Origin: a virus
Direction: 5' to 3' (one strand)
Length of the DNA stretch: 37,955 nt
Virus record (IMG/VR): IMGVR_UViG_3300024273_001131
Span: 1-37,955 of that record
The notes under the pieces are model-generated. The model was not told the DNA's origin and did no database searches. It was given only the letters and a program-made list of their open reading frames with translations. A program made the translations under genes and the position numbers. This document shows, in pieces, positions 17,375 through 37,955 of the stretch (positions within the stretch are counted from its first letter, which is position 1; each line of letters starts with the position of its first letter).

Positions 17375-19720
17375 ATGTCTACAAAAATGAAGGAATTATT
17401 TAAAACGGATCTAGATCCGAATTCATCTAAATGGTGGTCTACTGATAAGATAGATAAGATCAATTTGAATTTCAAACAATTTTCTGATGGTGGACAGGTT
17501 GGTCCTCGTGGATTTCAGGGTGCGTATGGAGTCGTTGGATACGCTGGAAATCAAGGTCCTCAAGGTCCTCAAGGTATTCGAGGTTTTCAAGGAGTTCAAG
17601 GAATTTCAGGAGAGAGAATTTGGAATTATTTAGAAGACACAGTTCATAGAGAATTATACGTGTTTCCAAAAGCAATTAGTACCACGCATGCCGTATCGAT
17701 GAGGATTGGTGAAAAAGATGGGGTTAGTCCGTACGGTGAACTGCTTCCTGAATCTGTCAAAGGACCTGCATTAACAATAGATAATAGAGATTCTGAATTT
17801 AGCCAACTTACAATTTCATGTAATGAATCTGATGTTAAAAAAAGAGCAGATTTTAAGTATACATATGTTGGCGGAACCAGTGTTATTAGAATAGGTAATT
17901 TAGTAAATAGTGAAGCGTTTATACTTGATTTTAAGTCTAATAGTACTGTATCAATATTAGATGCGATTCAATATTCTCCTGGAAAAATAAGTTTTGATAA
18001 GAATTCAATTTTTAATATTGGTCGTAACATTTTGTCTAAGTCAACTACAAGATATACAAAAGACGCTGGTATAAATAAAGTCTTGGTTTCTACTGATTCG
18101 CTCGGGTCTACCAGATGGGTTAGTAGATCATCTGTTTTTGGTAATTTTCCTATAGGTTCTATAATATCTATACAACATGCTGAATTTTTTAATGATTCTA
18201 ATTTTTATTTAGATGAAATCGCGTCTAACACAGGTGAGGTTCTATCTTTTAGATGGGGTAAAGGAAAACCAGGTACTCCTTATGAAGGATGGTATCTGTG
18301 TAACGGTGAAACTTGGGATTATTTATCGCTTATATCATATATTGTACCTAATTTAAATTCATTTAATTATGCAATAGATTCTAACGGAGATGCACAAGAT
18401 GCTGCGAATGGAGGAGATAATTCAATAGTAGTTGTTGGTGGATGGAATTCAAGATCAACATCAACAGATCTTGTAGGTTCTTATACATCTTCTCTATCGG
18501 AAGATGATACGTCTGACGTTTTAGTTGTTTTTGATAATGTTGGAAGTACTTGTGAAATTAAAAGAAACATACAAATAATATATCTAGAAGACACTAGGTT
18601 GTTGTGGGAAAACAATAATTCAATAATAGTTCCTACTACTCTGTATGACATAACACTAACACAAGCCAACACGACATCAACAAATGCATGTAGTAGTACA
18701 ATAAACACTCAGTTTAAAATAACGAATTCTAACCTGACATGGTCTGATTTCTTAGAAACTGGAAGTGGTTATGAATTATATAATGCTAGTGGGAATTCAT
18801 CCGCTACTCCTGGTTGGTATCAAAGAGAAGGTGTATCTAGATATTGGAATGGAACAGGTTTTACACAAAAAGTTACATGTGATATACAAAGATCTTTTGC
18901 GCATGGAGAAAACGTACTTCTATTTAATGGACCTGCAATACCATTTGAATTTTATAGCGCGGTGACAACTACGTATAATACTTTTTATATAAATGCAGTT
19001 TCATTTACAGACGCTACTATAATAAAACAATCAACTGGCGAAAATTGTGTACCTGGATGGTATCGAGAAGTTGCTGGTTTTGGTTTTGCAAATGGAAGTG
19101 TTGGTGGAACCAGAAGATATTGGAATGGTAACTCTTTTATTGGACTATCTATTGATCAGGATTACGTTAGAGCTGCTGATAATGGATCTTTTGGATTATA
19201 TTATGGAACTTCTACAACTGGTGTTTGTGATTCCGGTGTTTTACAAAAGACATATTATTCAAGTGATATATCTACATTTGCACCAAGTGGCGTGGTTGTT
19301 AATTCAACTCCATTAGTTCATGTTGGATATTCACAAGGAACTACTGGTCATTTTCCATTATCAAAAGTGAACACGCAGAACGGATTTGGAGTGTATTCTC
19401 CATATAGTAGAGCAAAGAGTGTTTCCGCGCCAATAGAATATGGTATAATTGATGCAACATCAGGTATTATATCTTCTGGGCAATTTACATGTCCTGTACC
19501 GGAACCGATAAACACATGTAAAGGATATACTCTTACTAATGGTTTTAATCAAGCCACTGCCTATGTTAAATACATAAAATGCGGTGAATCTACATATACT
19601 CAATTGGGTGTTCCTAGGGAATCAGAAAGACAGGTATGCACAGATGGAGATGCGCCAATTTACGTTAGCGGATCTACTATCACAATCACACCTAACAGTA
19701 ATTTCTGTCCTATTCCATAG
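17375..19720 (+). CDS. collagen-like tail fibre with tail-collar domain, cysteine-rich tip
   Basis: This protein is 781 aa. An N-terminal docking-like motif (KINLNFKQF, about 28-36) precedes about 13 Gly-X-Y triplets (43-79, including GPQGPQG), which form a collagen-type triple helix. A phage tail-collar-like domain starts near residue 259 (PIGSIISI), with GWYLCNGETW around 305-314 and VPNLNSFNY just after. The C-terminal third has a repeated PGWY...RYWNG module (around 480 and 565) and many cysteines, ending in a Cys-rich segment. T4 gp12 has a comparable collar. The next gene is a paralogue. The divergent C-terminus suggests the receptor-binding tip. Confidence 0.75.
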   Translation: MSTKMKELFKTDLDPNSSKWWSTDKIDKINLNFKQFSDGGQVGPRGFQGAYGVVGYAGNQGPQGPQGIRGFQGVQGISGERIWNYLEDTVHRELYVFPKAISTTHAVSMRIGEKDGVSPYGELLPESVKGPALTIDNRDSEFSQLTISCNESDVKKRADFKYTYVGGTSVIRIGNLVNSEAFILDFKSNSTVSILDAIQYSPGKISFDKNSIFNIGRNILSKSTTRYTKDAGINKVLVSTDSLGSTRWVSRSSVFGNFPIGSIISIQHAEFFNDSNFYLDEIASNTGEVLSFRWGKGKPGTPYEGWYLCNGETWDYLSLISYIVPNLNSFNYAIDSNGDAQDAANGGDNSIVVVGGWNSRSTSTDLVGSYTSSLSEDDTSDVLVVFDNVGSTCEIKRNIQIIYLEDTRLLWENNNSIIVPTTLYDITLTQANTTSTNACSSTINTQFKITNSNLTWSDFLETGSGYELYNASGNSSATPGWYQREGVSRYWNGTGFTQKVTCDIQRSFAHGENVLLFNGPAIPFEFYSAVTTTYNTFYINAVSFTDATIIKQSTGENCVPGWYREVAGFGFANGSVGGTRRYWNGNSFIGLSIDQDYVRAADNGSFGLYYGTSTTGVCDSGVLQKTYYSSDISTFAPSGVVVNSTPLVHVGYSQGTTGHFPLSKVNTQNGFGVYSPYSRAKSVSAPIEYGIIDATSGIISSGQFTCPVPEPINTCKGYTLTNGFNQATAYVKYIKCGESTYTQLGVPRESERQVCTDGDAPIYVSGSTITITPNSNFCPIP

Positions 19721-19766: not shown

Positions 19767-22070
19767 ATGGCAATTATCAACCTTAAAAATATAGAATTCA
19801 CCGATACTGATAATATCAAATTGGACAAAGTTAATTATAATTTTGATCAGTTGGTATCTAATGGCGGTGGTCCACAAGGACCTACTGGTAACGTTGGTCA
19901 GACCGGATTTCAGGGTGTAAATGGTTATCAAGGTCCTTTTGGAACGACTGGTTTTCAAGGTTTTCAAGGTGCTCAGGGAACTTCAGGTGGAGACGTATGG
20001 ATTGCACTCCAAGGTACAGGTACAGATTCGAGTGTTATTTTTCCAAAACATAATCTTATTAGTTTTCCTAATCCACCAATTGTTAGTGTTGGTTTTAAAG
20101 AGGATGACGCTGAATATTTTGATGTTAGTACATACTCTACTTTTGCTATTGCTCCATATCAATTTATAATAAATAGAAGTAGCAGTAGGAGTTCTAATTT
20201 AGCATTTAAAACTAGCGGAACAACAAATCTTTTTTTACATACGATTTCTTATAGTGACTCTCTAGCAAAAATGACAATGGGGTTTAGGGATCTAGTTGAC
20301 CCCAATACTAGAATAGAACTATGGGCATCTGAATTCAGATATGTCGATGTTTCAGGTACAGCACTGGTTACAGTTAACGCCACAAATATAACTTCTGATA
20401 TTCCGGCAGAATTTAATAATGATTTAACGATCCATGGAAATCTTACAATAGAAACGGAATTTGCGACAGGCCAGCCAGGATCTCCAGATACTAATAAAAT
20501 AGCAGTTTCTGCGGACGCTACCGGAAAAATAATATTTAAGAATATTGAAGAACTTGGAGGAACTGCACCGATTGGTACAATAATTTCTATGTTACCTTCT
20601 ATTTTTCAAGATAATGCTTTATTTTTAAGAACAGAGACAGTCACTTCTTCGGCATCATCCCCGATTGAAATCAGAGTTGGCTCTGGAATAGGTTTATATG
20701 AAGGATGGTATTTATGCAATGGAAAAACATGGACAAACGGGTTGACCGGAATTGACGAGGTTTCACATGAAGTTCCTGATTTAAATTCATTCTCATATTC
20801 AATAGAAGACGATACTACGACGACAGATCCAAGTAGTCAAGGTTCTGTTACTATAGCGAATAATAAGACGTCAATAATCGGAGGATCTGATATAGATATG
20901 ATTGCTGAATTTCAAACAGGAGTATACAATATATCAACTCCTTCCATAAGTACATCAGACTTAAATATAGATACTATTGTTGGTGGAAATACAACCATTG
21001 TCATTAAGAGATTACCTCAAATAATTTACTTAGGAATTGCAGATTTATATTGGTCTGACGCCGGAACTGATCAAACGCCACAAGCTACAGTTTCTTATAA
21101 TTTTGATGAAACATCAAATAATCCTGCAACTGATATACATACTGTTAGCCATACAGCAACACAAGGAAGCTCTACGTCTTTTAGTACAACTATAAATCCT
21201 CCATCTGGATATGTATATACTTCGGTGCCTACATTTACTGCGCCGGCTGGATTTTTTATAGCTTCAAGTCAGCTTTCAAATGGATCTATATTGTTAACTC
21301 TTAATATAACTACACAACCAGTAGATGGTGTTACTATTACTATAACGTATGATTTCACAAGTAATATTACTTTAAATACAGTTACTCATTCATATCTGTT
21401 ATTTGCTCTTAGTGATTCGTTGATATCTGATGATGGATCTGATGGAACGCAGAATACCACGGTTATCAAGACTCAAATTCCTGGATCTACATCAACATTT
21501 CAGGTTATAGTAACTGCTAACAGTGGCTATGAGTTTACGCAATCAGATATCGATAATATATCGTTAAATGATTCAGTTCCTGCTAGAATATCGCTGAGTA
21601 ATAAAGTTCTTGCAGTAGATTCTAAATCATTTACAGCTACAATAACTGATAGTGATTTTCCTGCAACAGAGGGCACTCAAACTCAAATATTATGGTCACC
21701 TTCTAGTGGGGCTACTCGAATATTAAAGTTCACTCTATTTAGCGAGTCAGGAACTTCTATATCGACTGGAAGATCATATGTGTATTTATTAACAGGTACT
21801 CCGGTTGTTGGTTCTGTAATCAATATGGGTATATATAGTACTACGATTTTATATACAATAAATAGTTCTAATATCGATACTGTCGGATCATCTTATGCTA
21901 CGTTCTTAAATAATGTAACAGCTGCTCAGTGGAAAGCAGCGGGTATATATTCATACACTCAAGGAAATCCTGTTGGTTTTGAGCCTACCGCTTCATATGA
22001 CAGTGTAAATGATAGATTAACATTTAATATGAACTGGCAAAATAGCATATCTCCACCATACGTGCAATAA
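19767..22070 (+). CDS. collagen-like tail fibre with tail-collar domain, Ig-like tip
   Basis: This 767-aa protein is a paralogue of the preceding fibre. A docking-like motif (KVNYNFDQL, 21-29) is followed by 13 Gly-X-Y triplets (35-74). The tail-collar-like domain starts near residue 268 (PIGTIISM), with GWYLCNGKTW near 313-322 and VPDLNSFSY just after. Both paralogues then share a strand ending in 'IIYL'. The C-terminal half has no cysteine cluster and instead carries Ser/Thr-rich beta-sandwich segments (around 435-530 and 540-630). The two fibres therefore share a shaft and collar but differ in the tip. Confidence 0.75.
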   Translation: MAIINLKNIEFTDTDNIKLDKVNYNFDQLVSNGGGPQGPTGNVGQTGFQGVNGYQGPFGTTGFQGFQGAQGTSGGDVWIALQGTGTDSSVIFPKHNLISFPNPPIVSVGFKEDDAEYFDVSTYSTFAIAPYQFIINRSSSRSSNLAFKTSGTTNLFLHTISYSDSLAKMTMGFRDLVDPNTRIELWASEFRYVDVSGTALVTVNATNITSDIPAEFNNDLTIHGNLTIETEFATGQPGSPDTNKIAVSADATGKIIFKNIEELGGTAPIGTIISMLPSIFQDNALFLRTETVTSSASSPIEIRVGSGIGLYEGWYLCNGKTWTNGLTGIDEVSHEVPDLNSFSYSIEDDTTTTDPSSQGSVTIANNKTSIIGGSDIDMIAEFQTGVYNISTPSISTSDLNIDTIVGGNTTIVIKRLPQIIYLGIADLYWSDAGTDQTPQATVSYNFDETSNNPATDIHTVSHTATQGSSTSFSTTINPPSGYVYTSVPTFTAPAGFFIASSQLSNGSILLTLNITTQPVDGVTITITYDFTSNITLNTVTHSYLLFALSDSLISDDGSDGTQNTTVIKTQIPGSTSTFQVIVTANSGYEFTQSDIDNISLNDSVPARISLSNKVLAVDSKSFTATITDSDFPATEGTQTQILWSPSSGATRILKFTLFSESGTSISTGRSYVYLLTGTPVVGSVINMGIYSTTILYTINSSNIDTVGSSYATFLNNVTAAQWKAAGIYSYTQGNPVGFEPTASYDSVNDRLTFNMNWQNSISPPYVQ

Positions 22071-25514: not shown

Positions 25515-25883
25515 ATGAAAACATTTATAGATTACATATCAGAACAAGAATCAACTGATTTAGAATTAAAGATTCTTTTAGAATCGTTAGAATCAGAATG
25601 GAGCGATGAACTAGAAGCTAAAGTTGATATGGCTTTAGAATCTTTTATGTCGACTTACAAGAATGAAGATGGTTCTTATAATATCCATGAATTTAATGAA
25701 GAACTTACTAATGAAGGTATTTTAGGATCTATTTTTGGAGGTCTTGCTGGTTTTGCGCTAGGTAAAACTGTCGGTAAGACTGTTGCAAAGATCTTAGGTA
25801 TTGAAAAAGGAATCTTTTATGATATGTTAACTTCGAGACTTGTAGGTGCTGCCTTAGGATCTGCTCTCGCTAATAAAATATAA
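25515..25883 (+). CDS. small protein with capsid-targeting-like N-terminus and glycine-zipper C-terminus
   Basis: This protein is 122 aa. It opens MKTFIDYISEQ, closely resembling the capsid-targeting sequence of T4 internal proteins (MKTYxEFIxE type). Residues 12-65 are acidic and helical and include the candidate prohead-protease site LLE23|S24; LTNE67|G68 is a weaker candidate. The C-terminus (68-122) is hydrophobic and glycine-rich, with small residues spaced as in glycine zippers (GSIFGGLAGFALG, then VGAALGSALAN), able to form paired membrane helices. It directly abuts the RuvC-like gene. I infer an internal virion protein that may act on membranes; the function is unproven. Confidence 0.6.
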   Translation: MKTFIDYISEQESTDLELKILLESLESEWSDELEAKVDMALESFMSTYKNEDGSYNIHEFNEELTNEGILGSIFGGLAGFALGKTVGKTVAKILGIEKGIFYDMLTSRLVGAALGSALANKI

Positions 25884-31175: not shown

Positions 31176-32849
31176 ATGGCTGAAGTTAATAAAATTAATT
31201 CATTTAAATCATTTACTGAAATTAAAGCGCAAGGTAGCGCTTTAAAACTAAGAGAAGAGAATCAAACAAAAAGACAAGAATTAGCAAGTAATTTTACTTC
31301 AATTCTTGATGAAATGGGTATCACTAGTCTTGCTGAATTAGACGAAGAAACGCAAAAAACATTTATCTCTAAAGTATTAGGTAAAGAAGTTAATGAAGGA
31401 AACGCATTCGTATATGCTGCTTCTAAGGCAAAAGCTGCTGGAGAAACAGAATTTGAATTTAATGGTAAAACATATAAAGTAACTATTAAAGATACTGGTG
31501 TTAAAGAATCTGAAGTTGTTGAAGAAGGAAATGCATTCGGAGACGCTGTTAAAAAGGCAAAAGAAGCTGGAGAGAAAGAATTTGAATTTGAAGGAGAAAC
31601 CTTTAAAGTAGAAGAATCAGCAGTTACTGAAGCTAAATTCGTAAAAGAATTTAACAAAGAAGTCTTAGATGCTAAAACTGAAGCAGAGATTTTAGCAATT
31701 TATCCTAAAGCACAATTCTTTAAAGGTAAGCACTCTCACTTTTTTGGAGAACTTGACGAAAACTTATTCTTTAAAGCCTATTATACAAATGGCAGTGAAT
31801 TTAAAATTAATTCAGTATACTCTGAAAAAAATAAAGACTATGTTCACTTATATAATGAATCAGTAGTTACTGAAGAGGAGAATCCATGTTGGGATGATTA
31901 TAAAGTAGGAGATCCTAAAACAAAAATATCTTCTAGAAGCGGCAAAAGAGTTAATAACTGCGTTCCTAAAAATGAATCATTTGTTACCGAAGCCTCGATG
32001 TCTGATATTGATCAAATGGCACAAGATTCAAAAGATTTTAAAAGTTTTGTAAAAGAATTTACAAAAACACACCGTGACCTGTCTACCGCCGGAGAACCTG
32101 GACAATTTATGGACTGGTTACAATCGATATATGATGGAGCTAAAGAAAACATGGAAGAATCTGTTGTTACTGAAGGTAAGGCCGACTATATGGCTAAATA
32201 TAAAGATACTAATATTAATTTAAAGAAGGCATACAATCATCTTAATGATGAAGAATTAAACCAACTCTATCTTGAGATTGGCGAATTGGTATCAGGTAAT
32301 AAATTAAAAGTTAAGGATGTTACATTAGTATTTGAATCAGAACTCACCGAAGGTGCTAAAGAAGATGCATTATATAGAAAACAACAATTAGCTACATTAA
32401 AAAACGCTAAAAAAGATAAATCTAAAAAGATGACAATCGAATTAGATTGGATGCTAGACGAAGAGCCTTTATCAGGTAAACAATTCGTGTCTGATATGAA
32501 AAAGTTTTCAATTTCTGTAGGAGAACCTACAAAGTCAAACGACGAATACAGCGGTAGCGAGTATGTTGTTAAATTTACAGGTTCTAGAGATAGCTTAAAG
32601 AAACTTATTGATAAATATTATGGCGGAGATTCTGAAACATATCTTGATGAAGCAAAAAAGGTTTTAGTTAACGAAGCTGAAATAAAATCTGATGATGAAT
32701 TTAAAGAGTATGCATTCACTGTGTTAAAAAACGCATTTGAATCAGATTTCGATGAAGCAAAAGCAGAAGAAATAGTTTCTGGAATACTAGCTAAAGTTGA
32801 TGGAGATTACGGAGCAGCAGTGGGCATGCTAACAAGTTCATTAGCATAA
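31176..32849 (+). CDS. putative prohead core/internal-head polyprotein with repeated protease sites
   Basis: This protein is 557 aa with no single recognised fold. It contains a regular series of T4-prohead-protease-type sites, [VLI]-x-E before G/A: VNE74|G, VEE117|G, VTE152|A, VTE272|A, VTE333|G, LTE392|G, VNE500|A. There is also VTE233|E, and a weaker site at LDE492|A. Cutting would give pieces of about 74, 43, 35, 81, 39, 61, 59, 108 and 57 aa. Pieces 2 and 3 are duplicates (GNAF...AGE.EFEF). Piece 5 has a CWDDYK...NCVP motif. The N-terminus has a targeting-like SFKSFTEI. It is highly charged. It starts the head-cargo cluster and ends at a terminator. Its identity as a scaffold or internal protein precursor is inferred. 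Confidence 0.65.
   Translation: MAEVNKINSFKSFTEIKAQGSALKLREENQTKRQELASNFTSILDEMGITSLAELDEETQKTFISKVLGKEVNEGNAFVYAASKAKAAGETEFEFNGKTYKVTIKDTGVKESEVVEEGNAFGDAVKKAKEAGEKEFEFEGETFKVEESAVTEAKFVKEFNKEVLDAKTEAEILAIYPKAQFFKGKHSHFFGELDENLFFKAYYTNGSEFKINSVYSEKNKDYVHLYNESVVTEEENPCWDDYKVGDPKTKISSRSGKRVNNCVPKNESFVTEASMSDIDQMAQDSKDFKSFVKEFTKTHRDLSTAGEPGQFMDWLQSIYDGAKENMEESVVTEGKADYMAKYKDTNINLKKAYNHLNDEELNQLYLEIGELVSGNKLKVKDVTLVFESELTEGAKEDALYRKQQLATLKNAKKDKSKKMTIELDWMLDEEPLSGKQFVSDMKKFSISVGEPTKSNDEYSGSEYVVKFTGSRDSLKKLIDKYYGGDSETYLDEAKKVLVNEAEIKSDDEFKEYAFTVLKNAFESDFDEAKAEEIVSGILAKVDGDYGAAVGMLTSSLA
31398..31631 (+). repeat. tandem duplication of a protease-bounded module
   Basis: Copy 1 (31398-31526, residues 75-117) and copy 2 (31527-31631, residues 118-152) both begin GNAF, keep AKAAGE/AKEAGE and EFEF, and end at an xxE site. 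The duplication unit coincides with the predicted cleavage unit. Confidence 0.7.
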
Positions 32850-32897: not shown

Positions 32898-32932
32898 GTT
32901 TATATTTGCCTATAATTAAAATAATAAAGAAC

Positions 32933-34222
32933 ATGAAAAAAAGAATACTAGGTTTCTCAGACTTCATATCAGAAAGAGAAAACAGATTAATGATTGAAAC
33001 ATTAATTCTTGAAGGTGGTGCAGCAGGACACATGCAGCATCCATTCGATGATGCTTCATTAACATTCGGAGACTTTAAAGAAATGATAAATGCAGGACTT
33101 CAAGGTAGTTTAGATTTTGAAGAAGAGACCACAGAAAAAACAGATGGTCAAAATGTATTTGCAACAGTAGTAGATGGCCAAGTTAAATTTGCTAGAAATA
33201 AAACTGAATTAAAATATCCAATGGATCTTTCATCATTTAAATCTAAATTCGAAGGACACCCTAGTAAACTTGTACAAGATACATTTCAATTTGCAGCAGA
33301 AGATTTAGCAAAGCAATTATCTAAATTATCAAGCAGTGATCAGTTAAAATATTTTAATAATGGAACTTCATTCATGAACATGGAGTTAATATATTCTAAA
33401 AATCCAAATGTAATTTATTACGATAGAGATATTATACAATTCCATGGAATTAAACACACAGATGGCGAAGGTAATATTATTGGAGAAGATACAAAACCTG
33501 CAAAAGAAATTGCAGCAATTTTAAAAAGCCTAAAAGCTGACATAGGAAACACATTTACTGTAATACCTCCACAGGTAATTCAAATGCATAAAGATCTTAA
33601 TTTTGATGAAAACAAATCTAAGTTTATTAAAAAAGTAGAAGATCTTAAAAAGACATTTAATTTAACAGATGCTGATGAAGTTTCAAGATATCATGAGATG
33701 TGGTGGAGAGATCAAATTGAAAAGAATTTTCCAGATTTATCCCAAACGTTTAAAGAAGGTTTGTTATTAAGATGGGCGTATGACGACAAGAAAACTCTTA
33801 ACATAAGAGCACTTGATAAAGAACTTGGAAAGGATAAAGCAGACTTGATTAAGAAATTTGATAAAGAGGATGTTAAAAAGAAATATAAAGAAAACATTAG
33901 ACCATTCGAAGACCTTTTCTTAGAGTTAGGAAGTGTTATCTTAAAGAATGCAAGTAATTTTGTTGCTGCAAATCCTGCTGCTGAAATGCAACGTTTACAT
34001 ACTCAAATTAGAACAGAAGCTGACAAAATTAAGCTAAACGGAAGTACTGAACAGATATTAAAAGTACAATCAGAGCTTGAGCGTTTAAATAGAATTGGCG
34101 GTATTGAATCAATTATTCCAACTGAAGGAATAGTGTTCACATACAAAGGAAAGATATTTAAATTAACTGGAACCTTTGCAGCAATTAATCAATTAATGGG
34201 AATCATAAAATACGGAAGATAA
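32933..34222 (+). CDS. ligase-like nucleotidyltransferase with capsid-targeting-like N-terminus
   Basis: This protein is 429 aa from ATG at 32933; an upstream TTG at 32906 in the same frame overlaps the region just past the terminator and is rejected. Motifs of the covalent nucleotidyltransferase (DNA/RNA ligase) superfamily are visible: EKTDG with candidate adenylated Lys69 (68-72), FMNMELIY with Glu151, EGIVF (398-402) as motif IV, and KIFKLTG (407-413) as motif V. The N-terminus GFSDFISE (7-14) resembles the T4 capsid-targeting sequence, and ILE27|G28 is a candidate prohead-protease site, so the mature enzyme would start at Gly28. An RNA ligase is more likely than a replicative DNA ligase, but the substrate cannot be read from sequence. 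Confidence 0.65.
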   Translation: MKKRILGFSDFISERENRLMIETLILEGGAAGHMQHPFDDASLTFGDFKEMINAGLQGSLDFEEETTEKTDGQNVFATVVDGQVKFARNKTELKYPMDLSSFKSKFEGHPSKLVQDTFQFAAEDLAKQLSKLSSSDQLKYFNNGTSFMNMELIYSKNPNVIYYDRDIIQFHGIKHTDGEGNIIGEDTKPAKEIAAILKSLKADIGNTFTVIPPQVIQMHKDLNFDENKSKFIKKVEDLKKTFNLTDADEVSRYHEMWWRDQIEKNFPDLSQTFKEGLLLRWAYDDKKTLNIRALDKELGKDKADLIKKFDKEDVKKKYKENIRPFEDLFLELGSVILKNASNFVAANPAAEMQRLHTQIRTEADKIKLNGSTEQILKVQSELERLNRIGGIESIIPTEGIVFTYKGKIFKLTGTFAAINQLMGIIKYGR

Positions 34223-34224
34223 TA

Positions 34225-36099
34225 ATGGCACTACAAAAACTTAGAGAATATTTTCAAGCAGCTAATTCAAATGAATTTAATGATTTATTAAAGAATAGAG
34301 TATTAGTCACTGAAAAAATAGCTGCACCGTCACTACATATCCAGAGAGAAAATACAGGCTTTAAATACTATAAGACAGGAAGCAACTCTCCGGTGAATAT
34401 AGTAGATAGGACTATTATTTCATTATATGAAATTGCAATAAATCACATGCAAAGTCTTTCTTTGGATAAAAAAAATCAATTGCCAATTGATTGGAGATTT
34501 GGCTTTGAGTATTTGCCAGAACTTAATGTTTCCAAAATAGAATATGCCAAAGTACCTGAAAATAATTTAATCTTAACACATATCCAACAGATTGGAGAAA
34601 ATGGTAAAGTTAAGAAAACCATTAACGATCCAATTATTTTAAACAAGTGGAAAAATGTACTAGAAGTCCAAGGACCTAGTATAATATTTGATGGGTATTT
34701 AAATGAGTTGCAGAAAACAGAGTTGTTAGAGTTGTTAGAAATGAACGACAAGTCGTTTGGAGACAGCTTCGACTATTTAGTAGAAACTGAAGATAAAACA
34801 TCATTTACTAAAAAAATTATTAAACTATTTAATCCAAATGAAAGAGCCTCAATACTTCACGAGGATCTAGAGCACGAAATTGATGGATTAATTATTAATT
34901 TTATTGATGGAAAAACTACTTCATCTTTTAAATTAGAAGACTTTAATAGATCTAAAATTAATGAAACAACTTCAGCAAGTCACATGTATCAAATTACAAT
35001 TGCTGATTTGTTAGAGTATTTAGTATCTTATGATTTAGGAGAAATAGTACTTGAAGAAGAAAACGCAGGAAACAGATACATCGAATTAATGTCGGTTTTA
35101 TTTAATGGGTACATTGAAAAGAATGCAACTAAATTTGTTGGAGTTAATTTTGAAAATGCGGAATTTTCTGAGTCTAATTCTTTTAAATTAAATCCTAAGT
35201 ATATTACCAATGAAAAGACTTTAAAACATATCCAAAATGACGTGTTATCAGAACTTTTTAAAATAACACTAAGTTCATTTAGAAAGAAGAGAAATAAAAC
35301 AACTGACATAATCAATCAAGACATGTTAGATAGGATGAATGAAATCATTGAGAATATCGACACTAAGATATTTGTTGAAAATACTGATGAAAATGCCATA
35401 TATGATTATCAAAACTTTATCATGCATAATAAAATTAAAAGCTCTGTTAATTTAAACGAGGCACTTAAAGTAAATCATACAGAACAGGGTAAAGAATTAG
35501 TAAATATGTTTGTTGGAAGATTTCAACCATTCACATTAGGACATGCAAAGGTATTAGAAACAATTTACAAAGAGAACGGATATCCAGTGATTGTATTTTT
35601 AGTAAAATCAAAAACTGTTAAAAAAGGAGAAGAGTTTAGCAAACCATATGATGAGGCAACTCAGATTAAAATGTTTAATGAAGTAAAGAAACAATATAAA
35701 TTCTTAAAAGAAATTAAAATAATTCCAACTGGAGCTATTGATACGATGTTTAATGAACTTAGACCTAAATACGAACCTGTTCTTTGGGGAACCGGAAGTG
35801 ATAGATTAAAAAGTTATGGTTTTCAAGTAAACAATGATTCTTATAGAGACCAATTAAATGCAAGAGCTGATTTTGGACTTTTTGAAATACCAAGAACCGA
35901 TGATAATATATCAGCAACTCAGGTTAGAAATGCCTTATTAGATGGTGATGAAAGGACATTTCAACAAATGACACCGAAGGCAATTCACGGAATGTACAAA
36001 GAATTAAAATCAAAATTAGAAGATGCAGTCGGAGTCACTTCAGAATCTCTAGTGATTGAAGGTTTAATGACGTTCGAACAATTCATGAAAAAACTATAA
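34225..36099 (+). CDS. ligase-like domain fused to nucleotide adenylyl/cytidylyltransferase, C-terminal tag
   Basis: This protein is 624 aa. Residues 1-250 look ligase-like: EKIAAPSLHI with Lys31 (the usual KxDG is degenerate), RFGFEYLP with Glu95, DGLIINF (220-226), and a FKLEDF motif (235-240). Residues about 425-600 are a nucleotidyltransferase: GRFQPFTLGH (431-440, a TxGH-type motif) and ISATQVR (562-568, ISxTxxR), as in NMN adenylyltransferases and cytidylyltransferases. A site LNE412|A lies between the two domains, and VIE612|G precedes a C-terminal tag MTFEQFMKKL. Cleavage would yield two separate enzymes plus the tag. It starts 2 nt after the preceding ligase-like gene. The substrate (NMN or another) is unknown. 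Confidence 0.65.
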   Translation: MALQKLREYFQAANSNEFNDLLKNRVLVTEKIAAPSLHIQRENTGFKYYKTGSNSPVNIVDRTIISLYEIAINHMQSLSLDKKNQLPIDWRFGFEYLPELNVSKIEYAKVPENNLILTHIQQIGENGKVKKTINDPIILNKWKNVLEVQGPSIIFDGYLNELQKTELLELLEMNDKSFGDSFDYLVETEDKTSFTKKIIKLFNPNERASILHEDLEHEIDGLIINFIDGKTTSSFKLEDFNRSKINETTSASHMYQITIADLLEYLVSYDLGEIVLEEENAGNRYIELMSVLFNGYIEKNATKFVGVNFENAEFSESNSFKLNPKYITNEKTLKHIQNDVLSELFKITLSSFRKKRNKTTDIINQDMLDRMNEIIENIDTKIFVENTDENAIYDYQNFIMHNKIKSSVNLNEALKVNHTEQGKELVNMFVGRFQPFTLGHAKVLETIYKENGYPVIVFLVKSKTVKKGEEFSKPYDEATQIKMFNEVKKQYKFLKEIKIIPTGAIDTMFNELRPKYEPVLWGTGSDRLKSYGFQVNNDSYRDQLNARADFGLFEIPRTDDNISATQVRNALLDGDERTFQQMTPKAIHGMYKELKSKLEDAVGVTSESLVIEGLMTFEQFMKKL

Positions 36100-36134: not shown

Positions 36135-37955
36135 ATGGAATCTAAAAAATCATTTGATCAGTATGTTAAAGAATCATTAGCAATGCTAAATGAGGCTAAA
36201 AAAGAAGCTGGTCTTTCAAAGGAAGAAACTTTAGTAGTTGCACAAAAATTTGCAGATGCAATGTCTAAAGCAGACAACGCAAAAGTTACTGTTAATAAAA
36301 GAACATTAGAGGAAGATTCATTTGACCTTGATGTTAATGGAGAAGAATATGACGGAGGATCTTATATAATTTACCAAAACGGTGATGTGATGAATGCTGC
36401 TGTTCCAGGTAATCCAATATACGGTAAGAAAAATGATACTGTAGATACTATTGCCAAGAATATGAAAAAAATGATTGGTGAATCTTTTGTTAAAGAAGGA
36501 GTTGACATGGAAGAATTACAAGATACATTAAAAAGAGTTAAAAAAGAAAATCCTGGTAAAAAAATAGGATACGCTTTTATCAAAGATGCATCAAAAGGAT
36601 ATAAGATTTCAATTAACGGAGAATATGTTAATGAATCATCTGATACTGAATCATTATATAATGTAATTGACAAAAAATCAGGTGAAGTAATGAGCGATGA
36701 ACCTCTTAAAAAAGATTTAGCAAAGAAATTTGCTGCTAAAAAAACAGGATGGATTATTCAAGTTAATGAATCGCTAGTTACTGAAGGTAGAGTTACTCTT
36801 AAAAGAAGATACACTGAAAATCATCCAGCAGTTACCGTTGGTAAAAATGCTACTATTAGAAATAAAGTACTAGAAGCAATAAAAGACGGAAAAATATCAC
36901 AAGAACAATTTGATAATATTGTTTCTGAATTATCAAATGATTCTAAAAGATGGACTAAAAGTAATTCAAAATATTTTAGTGTTTCTGAAGAAGGAGTTTC
37001 TTTATCAAAATTCGGAAGAAAGGTATTAAATAGTGTTACTGTCAACGAAGCAACTACAAAAAATCCAGAAATATGGGTTCCTGGTGGATTTGACAAAGAA
37101 GTAAGCAAAATACCAAACCAAAAAATAGATGTTGCAACTATTACTAAAATAGCAAAAAAATATGATGTCGATATCGATGATGCAATTGCATACGTTGAAT
37201 ATGGATGGGATATTGACTTATCAGAAAACACAAACACAAATATGAAAACAAAATTTATTTATGAATCATTTGGAGAATTTGTAAACTCCTTAAATGAATC
37301 TACTTTAAACGAGGCTTTTGCTTCTGCAAAGCTTGCAAGCATTTTAACTGGAGCTAATAAAATGGACAAGGATCTTCCATCTGCGTTTTATAGCATGTCA
37401 AAATTAGCACTTGATAAAATTCAAGATATTGATATTATTGAAATGACACCAGATCAAGCAAAGAAGGAGAAAAGAGCAAGCGCAGTTTACCTTTATTTCA
37501 CTACAAATGAAAAGGAAAACCCGTATGCAGGAAAAAGTTCTTATAATAAACATACAATCCCATCGAATACATTATTAGCAATCACAGATGGTTCAAATGA
37601 GTGGATGGCAACTGAATGGCAAAGATCTTATACTGGAGACAAGAAATCAATAAGAACTTTAAAAACTACAAAAAGAGATGATTCTGACGGTATTGATAAA
37701 TCAGGTGCAAGCAATCAATACGGTTCAGGTATTTCAAGCATGAAACAAGTTGTTGATTTAGCAGACAGAGCATACTGTTTAGATTTAACAGTTCTTAAAG
37801 CAAGATATTCTACACTAGCACAAAAAGATGAAAGATCTGCTGCTAAAAAAGGAGCAACAGCATTCATGAATGACAAAGAATTTAAAGCTGAAAATAAGAA
37901 AAGATATAATGACATTCTAGCTTCTAAAGCCGCTACAATGCCAATGGAGATCGGA
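36135..37955 (+). CDS. second putative head polyprotein (partial, runs off the window)
   Basis: An open frame from ATG at 36135 reads 607 codons with no stop to the window edge, so it is 3'-truncated. It begins with a targeting-like motif (SFDQYVKES, 6-14) and LNE20|A. More [VL]-x-E sites follow: VKE121|G, VNE167|S, VNE212|S, VTE217|G, VNE305|A, LNE388|S, LNE393|A. Met370 begins a second targeting-like stretch (MKTKFIYESFGEFV) after an A-rich context, so this may be a fusion of two internal proteins or contain an internal start at 37242. It is charged, Lys- and Glu-rich, with no enzymatic motif recognised. Role inferred as prohead core or cargo. Confidence 0.65.
   Translation, partial: MESKKSFDQYVKESLAMLNEAKKEAGLSKEETLVVAQKFADAMSKADNAKVTVNKRTLEEDSFDLDVNGEEYDGGSYIIYQNGDVMNAAVPGNPIYGKKNDTVDTIAKNMKKMIGESFVKEGVDMEELQDTLKRVKKENPGKKIGYAFIKDASKGYKISINGEYVNESSDTESLYNVIDKKSGEVMSDEPLKKDLAKKFAAKKTGWIIQVNESLVTEGRVTLKRRYTENHPAVTVGKNATIRNKVLEAIKDGKISQEQFDNIVSELSNDSKRWTKSNSKYFSVSEEGVSLSKFGRKVLNSVTVNEATTKNPEIWVPGGFDKEVSKIPNQKIDVATITKIAKKYDVDIDDAIAYVEYGWDIDLSENTNTNMKTKFIYESFGEFVNSLNESTLNEAFASAKLASILTGANKMDKDLPSAFYSMSKLALDKIQDIDIIEMTPDQAKKEKRASAVYLYFTTNEKENPYAGKSSYNKHTIPSNTLLAITDGSNEWMATEWQRSYTGDKKSIRTLKTTKRDDSDGIDKSGASNQYGSGISSMKQVVDLADRAYCLDLTVLKARYSTLAQKDERSAAKKGATAFMNDKEFKAENKKRYNDILASKAATMPMEIG

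Follow-up and report, generated by a model that had tools for sequence, protein, structure and literature searches.

Phage T4 packages its internal head proteins through a capsid-targeting sequence (CTS), for which ten residues of IPIII suffice, with residues 4 and 7 important for targeting and residues 8 and 10 for processing, and the protease gp21 cuts after L/I-X-E (as given in the accessible text of PMC9026906). Each of these genes yields one small mature protein. The T4 core proteins gp22, gp67 and gp68 combine many protease sites in one head-targeted chain; gp21 cuts them into several fragments (PMC5694885 and PMC9026906, in the parts available), and they are degraded and mostly exit the head. 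The polyvalent proteins of phages and conjugative elements are believed to travel with the DNA and to be set free by proteolysis (Iyer et al. 2017, PMC5512222, available portion). In the literature surveyed, which comprised titles and the openings of abstracts and covered few subscription papers, we found no description of a modular cargo polyprotein processed by a head protease.

The window analyzed here is the whole of virus record IMGVR_UViG_3300024273_001131, a fragment of 37,955 bases that carries T4-type gene families for baseplate wedge, tail tube, single-strand binding protein, primase, UvsY-like protein and helicase. Its final ORF, polyprotein 2, had been described beforehand as an unterminated frame, and it indeed contains no stop because the window ends there; extension to the stop was possible through a near-copy with 99% identity over the matched part (Table 1). 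We propose that polyprotein 2 is probably a cargo polyprotein targeted to the head, which the prohead protease would cleave into several proteins that are packaged and perhaps injected.

Table 1. Features of polyprotein 2 and neighboring genes in the window (a slash marks a predicted cut)
Feature	Position	Strand	Extent and basis
Polyprotein 2	36135..37955	+	607 aa, cut off by window end; L001 8001-10130 complete at 709 aa
N-terminal CTS-like segment (FDQYVKESLAMLNE/A), residues 1-20	36135..36194	+	F..[FY][LIVM] pattern plus LNE/A; putative targeting
Module A, residues 21-121, end ESFVKE/G	36195..36497	+	Family of 20 segments in 20 proteins; pLDDT about 88-98 at 28-115, <50 at 117-123
Variable region B, residues 122-217, end ESLVTE/G	36498..36785	+	Poorly modeled; VNE/S also at 167 and 212
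Module C (KRRYTENHPA...), residues 218-305, end VNE/A	36786..37049	+	Pattern match in 52/57 relatives; pLDDT 82-91, <50 at 303-307
Module D (PEIWVPGGFDK...) plus N/T-rich linker, residues 306-369	37050..37241	+	Segment family, AlphaFold model
Second CTS-like segment, Met370 to LNE/A393 (MKTKFIYESFGEFVNSLNESTLNE)	37242..37313	+	Sequence pattern
Conserved C-terminal domain, truncated in window, 316 aa when complete	37314..37955	+	57/57 relatives; AlphaFold pLDDT 81, pTM 0.51
Polyprotein 1	31176..32849	+	Modules in common with polyprotein 2 of relatives; 4 strict sites
Neighbor with N-terminal CTS-like FSDFISE	32906..34222	+	Sequence pattern
Neighbor with C-terminal cytidylyltransferase-like domain, end SESLVIEGLMTFEQFMKKL	34225..36099	+	Domain of this kind encoded alone, CTS-tagged, in L077, L005, L051 and L053

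Scanning with the protein as query returned 15 loci, and scanning with an alignment of the C-terminal domain covered 80 of 140 confirmed loci. From the latter we kept 71, dropping nine near-copies by eye, and added L001, L011 and L014; removal of 17 contained or identical sequences from these 74 left 57 distinct relatives, among which some near-copies remain (e.g., L040/L041 and L095/L101). A search of genome contigs confirmed no relatives, and the window protein, the C-terminal domain of L080 and the polyprotein of L051 were all without a match at E<=0.01 in the phage collection, where polyprotein 1 gave a single weak hit, to Synechococcus phage S-8S56 (8e-3).

The C-terminal domain is present in every relative, and the composition upstream of it varies strongly, with modules of about 30-100 aa gained, lost, tandemly repeated and relocated. 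The 11 complete relatives that were aligned are chains of 526-1008 aa with several modules; L011 and L014 have extra modules inserted behind the second tag and ahead of the C-terminal domain that are found in none of the other ten aligned relatives. Modules are common to polyprotein 2, polyprotein 1 and stand-alone CTS-tagged genes: residues 272-329 of polyprotein 1 are 84% identical over 58 aa to polyprotein 2 of L035 (on the same contig as L003), and tagged stand-alone copies in L005 (9490-9993) and L050 (6997-7326) correspond to a module inside polyprotein 2 of L051. Synonymous divergence is uneven between modules of one pair (dS 0.14 versus 1.11 in L095/L096 and 0.14 versus 0.45 in L037/L039), as mosaics would be.

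Polyprotein 2 is rich in candidate cut sites. It contains 12 [LIV]xE[AGS] sites against a shuffle mean of 1.89, a number reached in none of 2000 shuffles; three sites of the stricter form E[SN]...xE (mean 0.17, matched in 0/2000); and 15 of a laxer form (mean 7.8, equaled in 0.65% of shuffles), the lax and strict patterns having been composed after inspection of the sequences. The xxE sites of the preliminary description are confirmed; their number varies with the pattern, and none of the patterns used gave exactly eight. Among 22 tested ORFs of the window, only polyprotein 1 (11 sites) and polyprotein 2 are outliers for [LIV]xE[AGS], and the other 20 carry 0-5. Ahead of the C-terminal domain, P1 is E in 57/57 relatives and P3 is L (35), I (11) or V (11), whereas the A or S that follows was demanded by the search pattern. 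V at P3, which extends the L/I motif of T4, is also frequent at inner junctions, a point against the cargo reading proposed here.

The two targeting-like segments noticed initially are confirmed: FDQYVKE (residues 7-13) at the N terminus and FGEFVNS (379-385) after Met370. At the sequence level, F..[FY] followed by [LIVM]xE occurs N-terminally in 52 of the 57 relatives, two of the 57 rows being 5'-truncated. The pattern F..[FY][LIVM] falls within the first 25 residues of 169/507 ORFs of at least 100 aa in polyprotein-2 loci (spurious ORFs included), compared to 3.3% in shuffles, 24/507 in mid-protein stretches and 6/43 elsewhere, that is, in the window before 31.1 kb plus head-gene regions; a frequent N terminus among the tagged ORFs is MKHxKLFExFxNE. 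With this enrichment, the region resembles an island of genes targeted to the head, of which some stand singly and others are fused. A CTS profile derived from 106 stand-alone genes ranked the second tag first among internal windows in only 13 of 55 cases and often scored ES..xE linkers (e.g., FESVVNEA) highest, which hints that these linkers may be worn-down CTSs or may merely have the protease site in common with CTSs. A small ORF with a CTS-like start (MKTFIDYISEQES) also lies at 25515-25883, between tail-tube-like and RuvC-like genes.

The ends of segments that proteins share cluster at these xxE sites. We took BLAST segments common to proteins, with no prior cutting at sites, and compared their end positions with random positions. 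For segments of at least 75% identity and 25-150 aa, a lax site is no more than 3 aa away from 76% of 236 ends, which are not independent, versus 17% of random positions, and 50% of 206 ends lie within 8 aa of a strict site versus 10%; at lower identity the signal is weak (24-26% versus 8-9% within 8 aa of strict sites). In non-redundant sets, the proportion of ends within 6 aa of [LIV]xE[AGS] is 80% of 44 at >=75% identity (11 pairs; 16% at random), 59% of 56 at >=60% (14 pairs; 17%) and 63% of 60 at >=50% (15 pairs; 17%). The plain T4 pattern [LI]xE predicts ends less well (42-57% versus 18-19% within 6 aa) and is the weakest predictor at >=50% identity within 3 aa (17% versus 11%). A separate count over 13 shared families (31/48 ends no more than 3 aa from a lax site; random expectation 15%) was set aside as biased because the families had been built from segments cut at sites.

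Protease and capsid genes were sought by profile in 14 records, namely 13 of the 15 loci from the protein scan plus the window. The T4-type prohead protease PF03420 (gp21 type) scored over its cut-off in six and gp23 (PF07068) was found in four; the window record, being a fragment, has no protease gene. LYE-D near the N terminus is kept in all four gp23 proteins, which among named phages match best those of Bacteroidota (Prevotella Lak and Tenacibaculum PTm1). Moraphages, which are aquatic, Bacteroidota-linked, Lak-related jumbo phages with a prohead core protein protease (PMC12619734, accessible portion), may be the lineage of the window. The gene after gp23 (L028 2-1042, L029 7226-8650) has ESLVLEG/ESIIDEA-type sites too. 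Within the window, the ORFs at 17375-19720 and 19767-22070 have collagen-like GPQGPQG stretches near the N terminus and are perhaps tail fibers.

Some tagged genes nearby carry a cytidylyltransferase-like domain (PF01467 over cut-off). Stand-alone CTS-tagged copies lie at L005 4650-5246, L077 633-1229, L051 1433-2029 and L053 1476-2081, and in the ORF next to polyprotein 2 in the window the domain is fused behind an NEA joint. Its matches to NMN-adenylyltransferases are weak and far under their cut-offs. Judging from the tag, this enzyme is possibly carried in the head.

The modules of polyprotein 2 look like folding units parted by low-confidence linkers at several sites. In the AlphaFold model of residues 1-369 (pLDDT 72, pTM 0.37), the confident blocks are modules A, C and D, and pLDDT drops below 50 at 117-123, 147-157, 182-236, 303-307 and 365-369. 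Three of these five segments are at or beside the predicted joints 121, 305 and 364, the stretch 182-236 covers a badly aligned region around 217, and 147-157 is without a site. Plain linkers would give the same low confidence, and most relatives are single uninterrupted ORFs, so the chain might be an uncut multidomain head or structural protein in which the ES..xE stretches are mere flexible connections between domains. We consider this unlikely, since the linkers fit the cut motif of the protease family encoded in sister contigs, modules exist also as stand-alone CTS-tagged genes, and the C-terminal domain is a gene of its own in L071 and L089.

Searches for function gave no name to any module. 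Seven polyprotein-2 proteins scanned against Pfam had no family over the curated cut-offs and no embedded peptidase, and PHROG matches were to families of unknown function (8020 and 5922). The model of the C-terminal domain had no Foldseek match in PDB or BFVD at E<=0.001, its sequence had none in PDB at E<=1, and structural comparison (VIA) reached a best Z of 8.6 over the helical part only; the N-half model had no PDB fold match at E<=0.001. Purifying selection acts on the C-terminal domain (dN/dS 0.06-0.25) and on module C (0.03-0.17) over ten pairs.

These results bear on a second alternative, that polyprotein 2 is a scaffold-like core filler whose fragments exit the head, like gp22, gp67 and gp68 of T4. 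Four complete protease ORFs (L027 1688-3601, L028 2704-4716, L029 3680-5482 and L030 4515-6473; 600-670 aa in total) all continue for more than 400 aa after the protease in a coiled-coil-looking tail with 16-20 [LI]xE sites, perhaps a protease-scaffold fusion, a point in favor of a core filler. However, the polyprotein-2 modules look folded in the models (pLDDT 82-98), are conserved under selection, match in part small phage families and turn over strongly between relatives, which makes a core filler quite improbable.

The modules of polyprotein 2 appear to have been joined from separate genes. The chain had initially been read as a fusion of two internal proteins or a nested gene, to be checked by looking for split homologues, and these were found. 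L071 and its near-copy L072 have two genes, of 299 and 336 aa, in place of one: the 299-aa product closes with a counterpart of the second tag (TFVHESFGSFLNANI, stop), and the 336-aa product opens with its own tag, MKHIKLFEEYI, followed by the conserved C-terminal domain. L089 also encodes the C-terminal domain apart (MKHKFLFESFEEF...), with another stand-alone paralogue after it, and in L077 the N-half is likewise in another ORF. Stand-alone tagged paralogues of the domain lie beside polyprotein 2 genes at L089 7023-8072 and L102 8275-9351. Since stand-alone CTS-tagged module copies exist beside it, polyprotein 2 was probably formed when CTS-tagged genes fused in frame, although from more modules than the two first envisaged; the N/T-rich residues before Met370 may be read as a translated A-rich leader of the kind a fusion would leave. 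The split in L089 looks secondary because L089 nests among fused relatives, as sister of the fused L080; across the family, change may have gone either way.

The A-rich, start-like context reported for Met370 is genuine but mild. Of 3444 internal ATGs in these phages, 97% score lower over the preceding 30 bases than this one (37242), which nevertheless reaches only the 25th percentile among 483 putative gene starts, so that about three quarters of those have a stronger context; the 36135 start stands at the 91st percentile. A nested gene, whose second start at Met370 would yield the tagged C-terminal domain alone, is very unlikely despite the rank among internal ATGs, the A-rich upstream bases and the separate genes of L071 and L089. 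Not only is the context low among putative starts, but 13 of the 55 fused relatives, scattered over the tree as placed by eye, lack the ATG (one of them has GTG) and yet retain the tag-like segment.

On the best reading, then, polyprotein 2 would be of the T4 internal protein kind, newly with polyproteins and module shuffling. It resembles IPI, IPII, IPIII and Alt, CTS-bearing proteins cut by gp21, in an N-terminal aromatic tag followed by (L/I/V)xE, in the T4-type protease (here in sister contigs) and in a variable cargo set behind a conserved tag (for T4, the available text of PMC9026906 and PMC3012670). It differs in having several modules per chain, separated by cut sites and accompanied by an internal second tag, in modules that move between genes, and in that packaging is putative here; with chains of such length it is therefore a variant of the T4 internal proteins and no plain member. 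Polyvalent proteins are alike in having several domains per chain that are reshuffled (PMC5512222, same portion), but they differ from polyprotein 2, which lacks Pfam domains and an embedded peptidase in the proteins scanned, has small modules and would be released in trans by the head protease. The T4 core proteins share its many sites in one head-targeted chain but are degraded, whereas the modules of polyprotein 2 look folded and conserved.

Judged from its sequence, the cutting, packaging and injection of polyprotein 2 could proceed as follows. The N-terminal CTS, and perhaps also the second one before the C-terminal domain, would dock the chain into the prohead core, and the T4-type prohead protease of the phage would cut after [LIV]-x-E at the junctions. 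Several small folded proteins and the 316-aa C-terminal domain would thereby be freed inside the head, and some of them might leave with the DNA during infection. T4 IPI and Alt, the models for injection and counter-defense (PMC3012670, in the part available), suggest by analogy that the polyprotein-2 modules may be injected and may serve in counter-defense.

Polyproteins as a strategy are best known from eukaryotic RNA viruses. We further envisage, as a proposal with even chances of being right, a combinatorial delivery in which a deck of small head-targeted modules recombines at protease sites and moves between two polyproteins and stand-alone CTS genes, every phage thereby filling its head with, and injecting, an individual mix of ready-made host-directed proteins that the prohead protease has set free. 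Tailed phages would then, if this is true, be following a polyprotein strategy: few targeting events would suffice to load many cargo proteins, and recombination would use the cut sites as its joints. It would also supply a sequence rule, the CTS pattern plus [LIV]xE joints, for listing candidate injected proteins in metagenomic phages. Most such candidates have no functional name, and the rule, if true, would offer a way to test which small proteins are injected.
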